DNA of 33,681 nucleotides from Lachnospiraceae bacterium (GTDB lineage Bacteria; Bacillota; Clostridia; Lachnospirales; Lachnospiraceae): assembly GCA_029008035.1 (NCBI GenBank), contig JAQXIY010000078.1, positions 1 through 33,681 of the forward strand, given 5' to 3'. Numbering within the stretch: position 1 is the first letter of the stretch; each line of letters starts with the position of its first letter. Position numbers and translations under genes: made by a program. Below the pieces are notes generated by a model, which had not been told where the DNA came from, made no database searches, and worked only from the letters and a program-made list of their open reading frames with translations. Positions 13,353-31,334 of this stretch are shown one piece after another.

Positions 13353-13381
13353 GAGCCATTAGGGACAGTCCCTAATGGCTC
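13353..13381. repeat. REP-like palindrome (a), downstream flank of the RAYT gene
   Basis: gagccattagggac-a-gtccctaatggctc; perfect 14-bp arms, 1-nt spacer. Contains the RAYT stop codon (13372-13374). Confidence 0.95.
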
Positions 13382-14130
13382 CTAATACTGCATAATTTTT
13401 GTCTAGATATCCCGGTCAGGCGACTTAATTGTCTGACAGAAAAGCCTATGTCCAGTAGTCGCTGTAGGGCGGAATCTCTATCTTCTATATCTAAATGTTG
13501 AAAATCTGATAGCGAAACACAGCCTGTCATTTGTGCGATGACCTTTAACGACTCCTCATCCGACAATGTCCGAGGAGTATAATCCTCCATACACATATCA
13601 CGAGTATCGCGATTTACAAAATCAAGAAGTTCCTCTCGGCTATCAAAGTACGACATCATATCTTCTACATCCGTAAGAATTGCCACTTCATCCTCATACT
13701 CCCGATAACTGCTCCAGAGATATGTTTCTCCAATCTCTTTCTCCAGACCCGCACGCTTTGGATTTTGATGAATATAGCGAAATACCGTTAGAAAATACCT
13801 CTCCGTTTCCACTGGTTCGCTCTTATATCTCTCCTGAAACAAATGTCCAATTCGCTGATATTTTTCATTGTACCATTTTACAAAAGTCACTTCAATTTTT
13901 TTCATCACATCTCCAATGTCCATCTTATTCTCTCGAATCAGTAAGTGGATGTGATTACTCATCAGGCAGTATGCATACAAGCCAAAATCGCATTTCTTCC
14001 TGTAATGCTCAAGTACACTGATAAAAGTCCGAAAATCGTCTGAATCTTCGAAAATAATTTGTTTGTTAATTCCACGTAAAATAATGTGATAAACTCCTGT
14101 TGCACTTTTTCTTCGTGCCTTTCTTGGCAT
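13372..14130 (-). CDS. REP-associated tyrosine transposase (RAYT; Y1/HUH transposase, IS200-like)
   Basis: 'MPRKARRKSATGVYHIILRGINKQIIF', HUH motif 'SNHIHLLI' (His codons 13951-13953 and 13945-13947), 'FRYIHQNPKRAGL' with probable catalytic Tyr (13774-13776), C-terminal HTH 'GFSVRQLSRLTGISRQKL'. AAGGAGG just upstream. Confidence 0.93.
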   Translation of the reverse strand: MPRKARRKSATGVYHIILRGINKQIIFEDSDDFRTFISVLEHYRKKCDFGLYAYCLMSNHIHLLIRENKMDIGDVMKKIEVTFVKWYNEKYQRIGHLFQERYKSEPVETERYFLTVFRYIHQNPKRAGLEKEIGETYLWSSYREYEDEVAILTDVEDMMSYFDSREELLDFVNRDTRDMCMEDYTPRTLSDEESLKVIAQMTGCVSLSDFQHLDIEDRDSALQRLLDIGFSVRQLSRLTGISRQKLCSIRSH

Positions 14131-14258
14131 AGGCATGTCCTCCTTATAAATCATTTGTCAAAATAGTATGGGGATGTTCGTTGAACGAGAATGTCCAACA
14201 ATTGATGTTGATTCATAAATGATACATCAGGTCAAAAGAAAATGCAACCAAAAAGTAA

Positions 14259-14293
14259 ATTGAGCCATTAGGGACTGTCCCTAATGGCTCAAT
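14259..14293. repeat. REP-like palindrome (b), upstream flank of the RAYT gene
   Basis: attgagccattagggac-t-gtccctaatggctcaat; perfect 17-bp arms, 1-nt spacer. Confidence 0.95.
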
Positions 14294-15499: not shown

Positions 15500-15606
15500 C
15501 CTGGTATTCTCTCACAGTCAATTCATTGCGCAATTAACGCTGTGAAATAGTTATCGGAACATTTATTATCATTGTTAACCCCATGGGTAGAATCACATTT
15601 GAAGAT

Positions 15607-15631
15607 GCCATTAGGGACAGTCCCTAATGGC
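15607..15631. repeat. REP-like palindrome (c)
   Basis: gccattagggac-a-gtccctaatggc; perfect 12-bp arms, same core as (a) and (b). Contains the stop codon of the CPBP gene (15611-15613). Confidence 0.95.
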
Positions 15632-16468
15632 TCTCTTGAGGAGAATAATGCCGAAGTAGGTGGCAACCATAGCTCCGAAGAGAATGGCAAAGGCCTGCAT
15701 CTGATTATTGCCGGAGACAATCAACGAATCGCCCAGCGCCCCGGCAGCATTAAATGCTATATGAAGCACAATACCTGTCATAAGGCTTCCCGATTTGTGA
15801 ACAAAGTAGCCCAACATAAGTCCTATAAAGAAGGTGTAAAAACTCTGTAGCGGATTCAAATGAAGTCCGGCGAAGAGTACCGCCTGAATCACATTGGCAA
15901 CCCAGAAAGGTGCAAATCGCTTGGCAAATCCCATGGTCAATCCACGGTAAGCAATTTCCTCGCAAATAGGGCCCAGAATCACCACGTAAAGTACCAGTGG
16001 CAATGTTACCTCCTCTGTCAGTCCAATGGATTCCATCACCTTTTCGTAATTGGCCAGCCACTGGGGGAATAACATAGCAAGGAAGTTCATGGCATACATG
16101 CAAAGATATTGTGCACCAAAGGCAATGGCGACCACCCCGGCCCCAAAATGCAATGGCTTATTTGTAATGGCGGAAAGCTTCCATCTGCCTTTTTCCTCCC
16201 GGCCAAATTCCTTTTTGAACCATACGCCTAACAGCATCAATGCAATTACCGCATAGGTCAGAAGCACCGCCAGATTAAAATCTGCTGAGAGCATGGCGTT
16301 CATACAATCCTTCATAAAATCAAAATATCCGCCGCTCTCGTAATCATATGCCTTCTTGCAAATCAGAAGAAATCCCATAGCCATAGACAAAAACGTCTGC
16401 AACACCAGAATAAAAATGGTTGGCACCAGCGCTTTAAAAAAATAGCTTACTTTGTTTTCCATAATCAA
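15611..16468 (-). CDS. CPBP family intramembrane glutamic endopeptidase (CAAX-type/Abi)
   Basis: 'GPICEEIAYRGLTMGF' (EExxxR), 'VLFAGLHLNPLQSFYTFFIGLMLGYFV', 'GIVLHIAFNA' motifs; multiple TMs. Confidence 0.93.
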   Translation of the reverse strand: MIMENKVSYFFKALVPTIFILVLQTFLSMAMGFLLICKKAYDYESGGYFDFMKDCMNAMLSADFNLAVLLTYAVIALMLLGVWFKKEFGREEKGRWKLSAITNKPLHFGAGVVAIAFGAQYLCMYAMNFLAMLFPQWLANYEKVMESIGLTEEVTLPLVLYVVILGPICEEIAYRGLTMGFAKRFAPFWVANVIQAVLFAGLHLNPLQSFYTFFIGLMLGYFVHKSGSLMTGIVLHIAFNAAGALGDSLIVSGNNQMQAFAILFGAMVATYFGIILLKRAIRDCP

Positions 16469-29849: not shown

Positions 29850-31298
29850 ATGAGCACATTAAATTTAACCCTGCTGACGGATTTGTACGAAATGACCATG
29901 ATGCAGGGATATTTCAAGAGCAACAAGCAAAGCACCGTAATTTTTGATGCTTTTTATCGCAACAATCCATCGGACGGGGGATATGCCATCTGCGCCGGAG
30001 TGGAGCAGGTGATTGACTATATTGAGCATCTTCATTTTGACGAGAGTGACATTGCATATCTGCGCTCTCTGGGGATTTTTGAAGAGGACTTTTTAGAGTA
30101 TCTGTCTAACTTTAAATTTTCCGGAGACATCTACGCCATCCCGGATGGAAGCGTGATTTTTCCCCGAGAACCACTGATTAAGGTAATTGCTCCTATCATG
30201 GAGGCGCAACTGATTGAGACCGCCATCTTAAATATCATGAATCATCAGTGCCTCATTGCCACCAAAGCCTCCCGGGTGTGTTACGCCGCTGAGGGAGACG
30301 GGGTGATGGAATTCGGCCTCCGCCGGGCACAGGGACCGGATTCCGGCACTTACGGTGCAAGAGCCGCCGTCATTGGCGGTTGCAAGGGCACTTCCAATGT
30401 TCTGGCCGGACAGTTATTTGACGTACCGGTGTTGGGAACCCATGCCCATAGCTGGATTATGAGTTTTCCCGACGAGTACACCGCCTTCAAGACATATGCC
30501 AGACTTTACCCCTCTGCCTGCACTCTGCTGGTAGATACCTATGACACTTTAAAATCCGGCATCCCCAATGCCATTCGGGTCTTTACGGAGATGCGTCAGG
30601 AGGGAATTCCTCTGACCCATTATGGCATTCGCATGGACAGCGGGGATTTGGCTTATCTCTCCAAGGAAGCAAGGAAAATGCTGGATGAGGCAGGATTTAC
30701 AGACGCTGTCATTTCTGCCTCCAACGATTTGGATGAATATTTGATTCAGAGTCTGAAGAGTCAAGGGGCCGCCATCACATCCTGGGGTGTGGGAACCCAC
30801 CTGATAACCTCCAAGGATTGCCCTGCCTTCGGCGGAGTGTACAAACTGGCAGCCATCCGGTCCGCTGACGGAAGTTTTATTCCCAAGATCAAGCTTTCCG
30901 AAAATACCGAGAAGGTGACAAACCCCGGAAATAAAATTATCTATCGCATCTATGACAACGCAACAAATAAAATAAAAGCAGATTTAATTTGTCTTGATGG
31001 CGAGGTTTTTGATGAGAAGCAGGACATGCGTCTTTTTGATCCAAACGAGCCCTGGAAGAAGACCACATTGCCCGGGGGCTCCTATCATTTGAAAGAGTTA
31101 TTGGTGAAAGTAATTGAGAATGGTCGTCGAGTTTACACGTCTCCCTCCGTATTGGAAATCAGAGACTACTGTGACCGAGAGAAAGAAACTCTCTGGGAAG
31201 AGAACAAGCGCTTCGTAAACCCTTCCCAGGTTCATGTGGATTTGTCTCAAAAGCTCTATGATATGAAACAGGAATTGTTACATCAGATGAGCCAATAG
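29850..31298 (+). CDS. pncB: Nicotinate phosphoribosyltransferase
   Basis: 'LLTDLYEMTMMQGYF', 'EFGLRRAQGPDSGTYGARAAVIGGCKGTSNVLAG', 'GTHAHSWIMSF', 'YGIRMDSGDLAYLS', 'GVGTHLITS'. Stop codon lies in the REP-like hairpin (d). Confidence 0.97.
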   Translation: MSTLNLTLLTDLYEMTMMQGYFKSNKQSTVIFDAFYRNNPSDGGYAICAGVEQVIDYIEHLHFDESDIAYLRSLGIFEEDFLEYLSNFKFSGDIYAIPDGSVIFPREPLIKVIAPIMEAQLIETAILNIMNHQCLIATKASRVCYAAEGDGVMEFGLRRAQGPDSGTYGARAAVIGGCKGTSNVLAGQLFDVPVLGTHAHSWIMSFPDEYTAFKTYARLYPSACTLLVDTYDTLKSGIPNAIRVFTEMRQEGIPLTHYGIRMDSGDLAYLSKEARKMLDEAGFTDAVISASNDLDEYLIQSLKSQGAAITSWGVGTHLITSKDCPAFGGVYKLAAIRSADGSFIPKIKLSENTEKVTNPGNKIIYRIYDNATNKIKADLICLDGEVFDEKQDMRLFDPNEPWKKTTLPGGSYHLKELLVKVIENGRRVYTSPSVLEIRDYCDREKETLWEENKRFVNPSQVHVDLSQKLYDMKQELLHQMSQ

Positions 31299-31334
31299 GG
31301 ACGGATACCAATGGCACCCATCCCTATTGGCTCA
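31288..31334. repeat. REP-like hairpin (d) between convergent pncB and GT2 genes
   Basis: tgagccaataggga...tccctattggctca; perfect 14-bp outer arms. On the minus strand the stem extends to 22 bp around a 3-nt loop, with three G-U pairs. Confidence 0.92.

Follow-up and report, generated by a model that had tools for sequence, protein, structure and literature searches.

A RAYT-like transposase gene bracketed by inverted GGGAC hairpins in a Lachnospiraceae bacterium: a candidate REP/RAYT module with a tag other than GTAG

Introduction

The DNA analysed here, a stretch of 33,681 nucleotides from a Lachnospiraceae bacterium (the window, in what follows), contains a gene for an HUH/Y1 transposase enclosed by two palindromes. 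The question raised by this arrangement is whether it represents an insertion sequence (IS) or a REP/RAYT module, and, in the latter case, which signal the protein would recognise in hairpins that have no GTAG beside them.

The TnpAREP protein of E. coli cleaves single-stranded REPs and requires their GTAG foot (PMC8266576), and the residues that contact this foot have been reported (PMC6006769). The survey of Quentin et al. (2018; PMC6006769), in which subclass 2.1 ranks second in size among the subclasses of these proteins (group 1 among the RAYT groups of Bertels et al. 2017, as cited through that survey), obtained no REP-like sequences near the genes of this subclass by either automatic or manual searches, and the substrate of the group was therefore open. 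Most of the TIRYTs were assigned to the same subclass by those authors. According to the parts of Di Nocera et al. (2013; PMC3733652) drawn upon here, the TIRYT, or TIRtron, consists of a RAYT-like tyrosine transposase with inverted repeats that are unrelated to the GTAG REPs and carry the motif GGGGWSAS; some of these repeats are self-complementary, some are moderately repeated in the genome, and some overlap the 3' end of the transposase gene.

The hairpins of the window

An earlier note on this DNA had described the transposase reading frame between the two palindromes, together with a third copy nearby and a variant some 17 kb away, all of which were found again:

13353..13381, plus strand, cognate hairpin downstream of the RAYT, with centre A; its GGGACAG tag is on the plus strand, with GGGAC at 13362-13366
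14259..14293, minus strand, cognate hairpin upstream of the RAYT, a perfect 35-bp palindrome, with the tag inverted relative to the other flank
15605..15633, plus strand, third hairpin copy, with two mismatches in one arm, inside the 3'-terminal part of a CPBP-like gene
31289..31333, plus strand, dimer-type variant, GAGCCAATAGGGACGGATACCAATGGCACCCATCCCTATTGGCTC

The stem of these hairpins is GAGCCATTAG/CTAATGGCTC and the tag reads AGGGACAG, and the upstream copy has its GAGCCATTAGGGAC-N-GTCCCTAATGGCTC core at 14262-14290, with T as the central base. Folded as single-stranded DNA, the downstream hairpin reaches -14.1 kcal/mol (z -7.3), and it also contains the stop codon of the RAYT gene (TAG, 13372-13374), as is the case in two related species. 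When the 14-mer arm is searched with up to three mismatches, it has 10 matches in the window, whereas 2.7 would be expected and 100 shuffles gave no more than 6.

The third copy supplies the stop codon of the CPBP-like gene (15611-16468), the ortholog of which in a relative (G004) has no element and has a longer C-terminus (...SSDNHFTA). In the carriers, DNA that matches this old tail can still be recognised downstream of the element; the excision of the third copy in silico did not restore the old reading frame, and just the remnant tail is recognisable.

The RAYT-like protein

The features of the gene, all of them on the minus strand, are as follows:

13372..14154, minus strand, gene for a RAYT-like single-domain transposase of the HUH/Y1 type (260 aa; Y1_Tnp, E=2e-15)
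13945..13953, minus strand, HUH motif H68-I-H70, invariant in the 61-sequence alignment
13762..13776, minus strand, catalytic residues Tyr127 and Asn131, in the Y---NP signature of class 2, invariant in 61 sequences
13378..13488, minus strand, C-terminal three-helix domain of the helix-turn-helix type (residues 223-259), in the AlphaFold model

As H68, H70, Y127, N131 and P132 are all invariant in the 61 sequences, the protein has both the HUH and the Y---NP motifs by which RAYT / TnpAREP class 2 is defined, and its closest homologs are mostly from Clostridia. Against NF047646 (REP_Tyr_transpos, the NCBI model of the REP-associated tyrosine transposases) it scores 67 bits, below the cut-off of 80. 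The nearest solved structure by fold is 4er8 (E=1.3e-7), the E. coli TnpAREP with a bound REP hairpin, which was also found by a profile search of the PDB (E=1.5e-6); a single-sequence search of the PDB gave no match. In the profile alignment, Tyr127 and Asn131 correspond to Y115 and N119 of 4er8.

The AlphaFold model (mean pLDDT 91) presents an HUH core followed by the C-terminal three-helix domain, with helices at residues 223-236, 240-247 and 251-259 and pLDDT values there of mostly about 90. HTH_7, HTH_23 and HTH_28 of Pfam match several of the homologs, and the protein of the window (P0001) itself has a weak HTH_23 match only (E=0.016). Both the predicted structure and the matches of the homologs thus indicate the C-terminal helix-turn-helix extension that characterises subclass 2.1 / RAYT group 1. 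The E. coli residues that contact GTAG are for the most part replaced: W94, E100, H101 and R104 align with F106, S112, E113 and E116, and Q95 alone is retained, as Q107.

Copies across the host genome and their build

The presence of the palindromes elsewhere in the genome had been set beforehand as a test of the earlier reading, and they are abundant: the 29-mer, with up to three mismatches, is found at 29 genomic places, against 0 for the reversed control, and the relaxed core GCCANTAG-N3-25-CTANTGGC has 46 matches, against 0 for the control. When clustered, these amount to at least 53 elements in the 2.1 Mb of the host genome, a lower bound taken from the genome stretches around pattern matches, versus one RAYT. 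Two host contigs, C22 (L067) and C33 (L071), have clusters of about 8 elements per 19 kb and 7 per 11 kb, well above the genome average.

The core lengths are nearly always 25, 47 or 69 bp, that is, a hairpin plus zero, one or two direct 22-bp units. Given that the 25-bp monomers have exactly one GGGAC[AG] in all 25 cases and that 20 of the 22 47-bp forms have one tag on each strand, the monomer and the inverted pair are taken as the basic forms, as are the REP and the REPIN elsewhere. The opposite orientation of the two flanking copies, judged in the earlier note by the central base only, is consequently real, and the inverted, gene-facing layout is also the rule in the homologs.

The same note had called the REP unusually symmetric, and this holds in part: perfect symmetry is found in one subtype, but it is not a defining trait, since many copies are asymmetric, with GGGAC in one arm and GTATC or GTGAC in the other. 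In the copies of highest symmetry GGGAC is partly base-paired, so that its position in the loop is strictly true for the asymmetric copies only. A GTAG or GTGG foot, the absence of which from any fixed place beside the hairpins had been remarked upon before, is indeed lacking as a rule, with just 5 of the 53 elements having a GT[AG]G at 8 nt or less beyond the hairpin. Outside the elements there is no conserved target sequence beyond the GA...TC ends.

RAYT and repeat within the genus

Five draft genomes of the genus, 83-87% complete, were compared. Three of them (G000, G001 and G003) contain both the RAYT, at 70-100% identity to that of the window, and the repeat, the strict pattern being matched 33, 10 and 2 times, respectively; the other two (G002 and G004) contain neither, and the expectation that close relatives with no RAYT would lack the palindromes is thereby borne out. 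The repeat is also absent from all of 74 further relatives.

The RAYT occupies the same locus in the three species: the gene lies between dnaE and the P0002 gene, flanked on either side by the unit, in inverted copies or in arrays, and a repeat unit provides its stop codon in all three (AGC CAT TAG, AGC CAA TAG and GGT CAA TAG). In G004, dnaE and P0002 are adjacent, about 90 bp apart, and there is neither a RAYT nor a palindrome between them. In the related species, the flanks of the RAYT are arrays of 21-24-bp GGGAC units (L032, 1427-1500 and 2402-2495; L033, 1391-1505 and 2402-2520) that exceed in length the window's single hairpins, and the number of units thus varies at orthologous sites.

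This locus could be read as a degenerate IS200-like IS, a TIRtron that moves as a whole, the dispersed hairpins being MITE-like remnants or solo ends. The inverted repeats do bracket the gene, at about 20 bp or less from the neighbouring genes, the site is empty in G004, and a pair of genomes from one genus (G059 and G077) has seven or eight RAYT homologs in each. However, the RAYT is a single copy in its own genome (one match in a 2.13 Mb draft, 85% complete), where an IS200/IS605 element would have multiple identical whole-element copies; the same locus is occupied in three species whose RAYT proteins differ by 25-31%; and the dispersed copies follow the 25/47/69-bp grammar of their own and are not truncated cassettes. 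An IS is thus considered unlikely. A single-copy, non-mobile gene with flanking inverted repeats that are dispersed over the genome is, by contrast, the arrangement by which RAYT / TnpAREP class 2 is recognised.

Position of the elements relative to genes

Once the elements had been removed in silico and the genes predicted with a simple ORF caller, 24 of 49 insertion points were found to lie less than 50 bp from the 3' end of a gene. The corresponding share is 8% for random points and 20% for random intergenic ones. When the elements are left where they are, 32 of the 51 gene 3' ends next to them overlap an element, many at the same TAG.

This preference, like the predicted helix-turn-helix of the protein, would be expected if the hairpins served the host, as stabilisers of mRNA 3' ends, as terminators or as sites to which the helix-turn-helix binds, and if the protein regulated rather than mobilised them. 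This possibility is nevertheless improbable, and more so than that of an IS, given that the active-site HUH, Tyr and Asn are invariant in the 61 sequences, that one element disrupts a coding end (that of the CPBP-like gene), that there are relatives with no elements at all, and that an Rfam search with the hairpin element returned no family match.

The hairpin signal around homologous genes

The flanks of 80 sampled homologs (38-48% identity; mostly Firmicutes, with a few Bacteroidota and others) were analysed for the same signal. In the 400-bp flanks of these loci, GGGGAC facing the gene occurs 159 times, where the far flanks would predict 19.6, while the opposite orientation is seen 37 times; the gene-facing form is present on both sides at 44 of the 70 loci with complete flanks, versus 6 for the wrong orientation. 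Over all registers, the best stem has six base pairs around N2-GGGAC-N8. At least one GGGAC hairpin lies within 400 bp at 66 of the 80 loci, and on both sides at 43, while shuffles of the arms give a mean of 11.9 and a maximum of 17.

The stems vary by lineage (GAAGCA, GAGTCA, GACACA, GTGGCA, GACTCA and others) and mostly end in CA/TG, as does that of the window, GAGCCA, albeit with one additional base on each side. All six pairs show two-sided changes, with 169 double-changed cells in 73 elements versus 41 in shuffles; as these 73 elements were picked for pairing, it is the count of hairpins at the 80 loci that constitutes the unbiased test. The resulting consensus is G-N3-CA-N2-3-GGGAC-[AG]-N7-8-TG-N3-C, with a covarying stem. 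The base that follows GGGGAC at the homologous loci is mostly G, and the WSAS part of the TIRYT motif GGGGWSAS fits the GGGGACAG/C copies only.

The earlier proposal, of a RAYT/REP module of clostridial type whose recognition signal may differ, is supported by the two checks described above, and GGGAC[AG] hairpins recur at 66 of the 80 loci. This recurrence, with the lineage-specific stems and the fixed gene-facing orientation, largely refutes the notion, very improbable in our view, that another agent had spread the repeats and the RAYT then inserted among them by chance, in the manner of ISPpu9, which inserts into REPs, even though there are orphan hairpins in genomes that have no RAYT.

RAYT and hairpin number across the order

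A loose fixed pattern (CANGGGGACN8TG), applied to 196 genomes of the order, had too high a background per genome, although most of the strongest outliers were RAYT-positive, and a covariance model (R1) was adopted for this reason. At E<=0.1, three or more matches were found in 28 of the 57 genomes with a RAYT and in 12 of the 139 without one (p=1.3e-9, in a statistic that ignores kinship), with means of 8.5 and 1.3 matches, respectively.

About half of the RAYT-positive genomes have fewer than three R1 matches. Part of this shortfall comes from the model itself, which finds a single match in the genome of the window, where the spacing on each side is one base different; the rest of the low counts need not all be failures of the model.

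The 12 hairpin carriers with no RAYT indicate that the repeats can exist without the gene. No diverged RAYT was found in them by profile, in a search run without a positive-control genome, and they are probably orphans that followed the loss of the gene, as reported for the GTAG REPs. Two genomes of one genus (G106 and G136) have at least 20 hairpin copies each and no RAYT by sequence or profile; such orphan populations would lend themselves to measuring how the repeats decay once the gene is lost.

Comparison with known systems

The GTAG REP/RAYT systems (groups 2 and 3; E. coli, Pseudomonas and Stenotrophomonas) resemble the present one in the single-copy RAYT with inverted flanking REPs, in the dispersed monomers and inverted pairs (REPIN/BIME-like) located at 3' ends, and in the patchy loss of the RAYT that leaves orphan REPs (PMC8266576, PMC3116915). 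The present elements, on the other hand, have no GTAG foot, and it is the top of the hairpin that bears their conserved tag, GGGAC. The TnpA of IS200/IS605 shares the HUH/Y1 fold and the subterminal hairpins, but the protein of the window has Y---NP rather than Y---Q, a single copy, a conserved location and an extra C-terminal domain.

RAYT group 1, which is TnpAY1 subclass 2.1 (PMC6006769), has the same HUH and Y---NP motifs and the same C-terminal helix-turn-helix extension, and is likewise not an IS; the difference lies in the REP-like hairpins, seen here at most of the loci and not found in that survey. The TIRYT is the nearest description in the literature consulted, as inverted non-GTAG repeats flank a RAYT-like gene in both cases. 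Judging by the parts of that paper cited above (PMC3733652), what differs here is that GGGGAC[AG] stands in a hairpin whose stem is lineage-specific and covaries, that the hosts are mostly Firmicutes, and that the copy number tracks the gene; the 22-bp ladder of the present elements is likewise not described in those parts. The protein is not of the E. coli GTAG type and probably belongs with RAYT group 1 / subclass 2.1 / TIRYT, an assignment made by domain layout and motif rather than with the profiles of those authors.

Interpretation and proposed mechanism

The anatomy of the locus, the copy number of the hairpin, its occurrence together with the RAYT, the RAYT site that is empty in a relative, and the loop motif found throughout the family, on stems that covary, were all directly observed. 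They argue for a REPtron-like module, in which a domesticated protein of the IS200-type HUH/Y1 family with a C-terminal helix-turn-helix has its own substrate on either side in inverted copies; we would give this reading a probability of roughly three in four. On the evidence of the sequences, the RAYT-like protein has probably scattered the hairpin about fifty times over the genome, and the signal that it recognises is most likely the GGGAC[AG] of the upper hairpin, which is common to 66 of the 80 homologous loci. We judge this to be a REP/RAYT system that has a different, loop-borne tag instead of GTAG.

The substrate would be the 29-nt hairpin, with its lineage-specific stem and GGGAC[AG] on the loop side. 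The HUH domain may read this single-stranded hairpin through the GGGAC loop, which would replace the GTAG foot, perhaps assisted by the helix-turn-helix. By cutting and rejoining the hairpin, the protein could then copy monomers and inverted pairs to new sites, where the insertions that survive would be mainly those at the 3' ends of genes, the element often providing the stop codon there, while the RAYT gene itself would be immobile and inherited vertically.

In broader terms, we lean towards a second, largely Firmicutes class of REPs, which would have GGGGAC in the loop and no GTAG foot, and would be made and maintained through loop recognition by the RAYTs that bear a helix-turn-helix (group 1 / subclass 2.1). 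If so, the role of GTAG can pass to another tag at the opposite end of the hairpin. A concrete consensus makes both binding and cleavage directly testable, and it also offers a way to annotate the repeats in many Firmicutes genomes.

Other occurrences of RAYT homologs

The two genomes of one genus mentioned above (8 homologs in G059 and 7 in G077; loci L040, L041, L054 and L055) have inverted repeats GGTTCCTTCTTTTTAGGAACTGTCCCC at some of their copies, and these homologs, unlike the usual single copy, may be mobile. A search of phages for RAYT homologs gave a single, distant match with 24% identity, at 1185-1916 of MT835484.1, the record of an uncharacterised human faecal phage. Finally, in the flanks of two further loci (L150 and L177), the RAYT lies between perfect palindromes of large size, composed of two GGGGACGGTTCT tags placed head to head.
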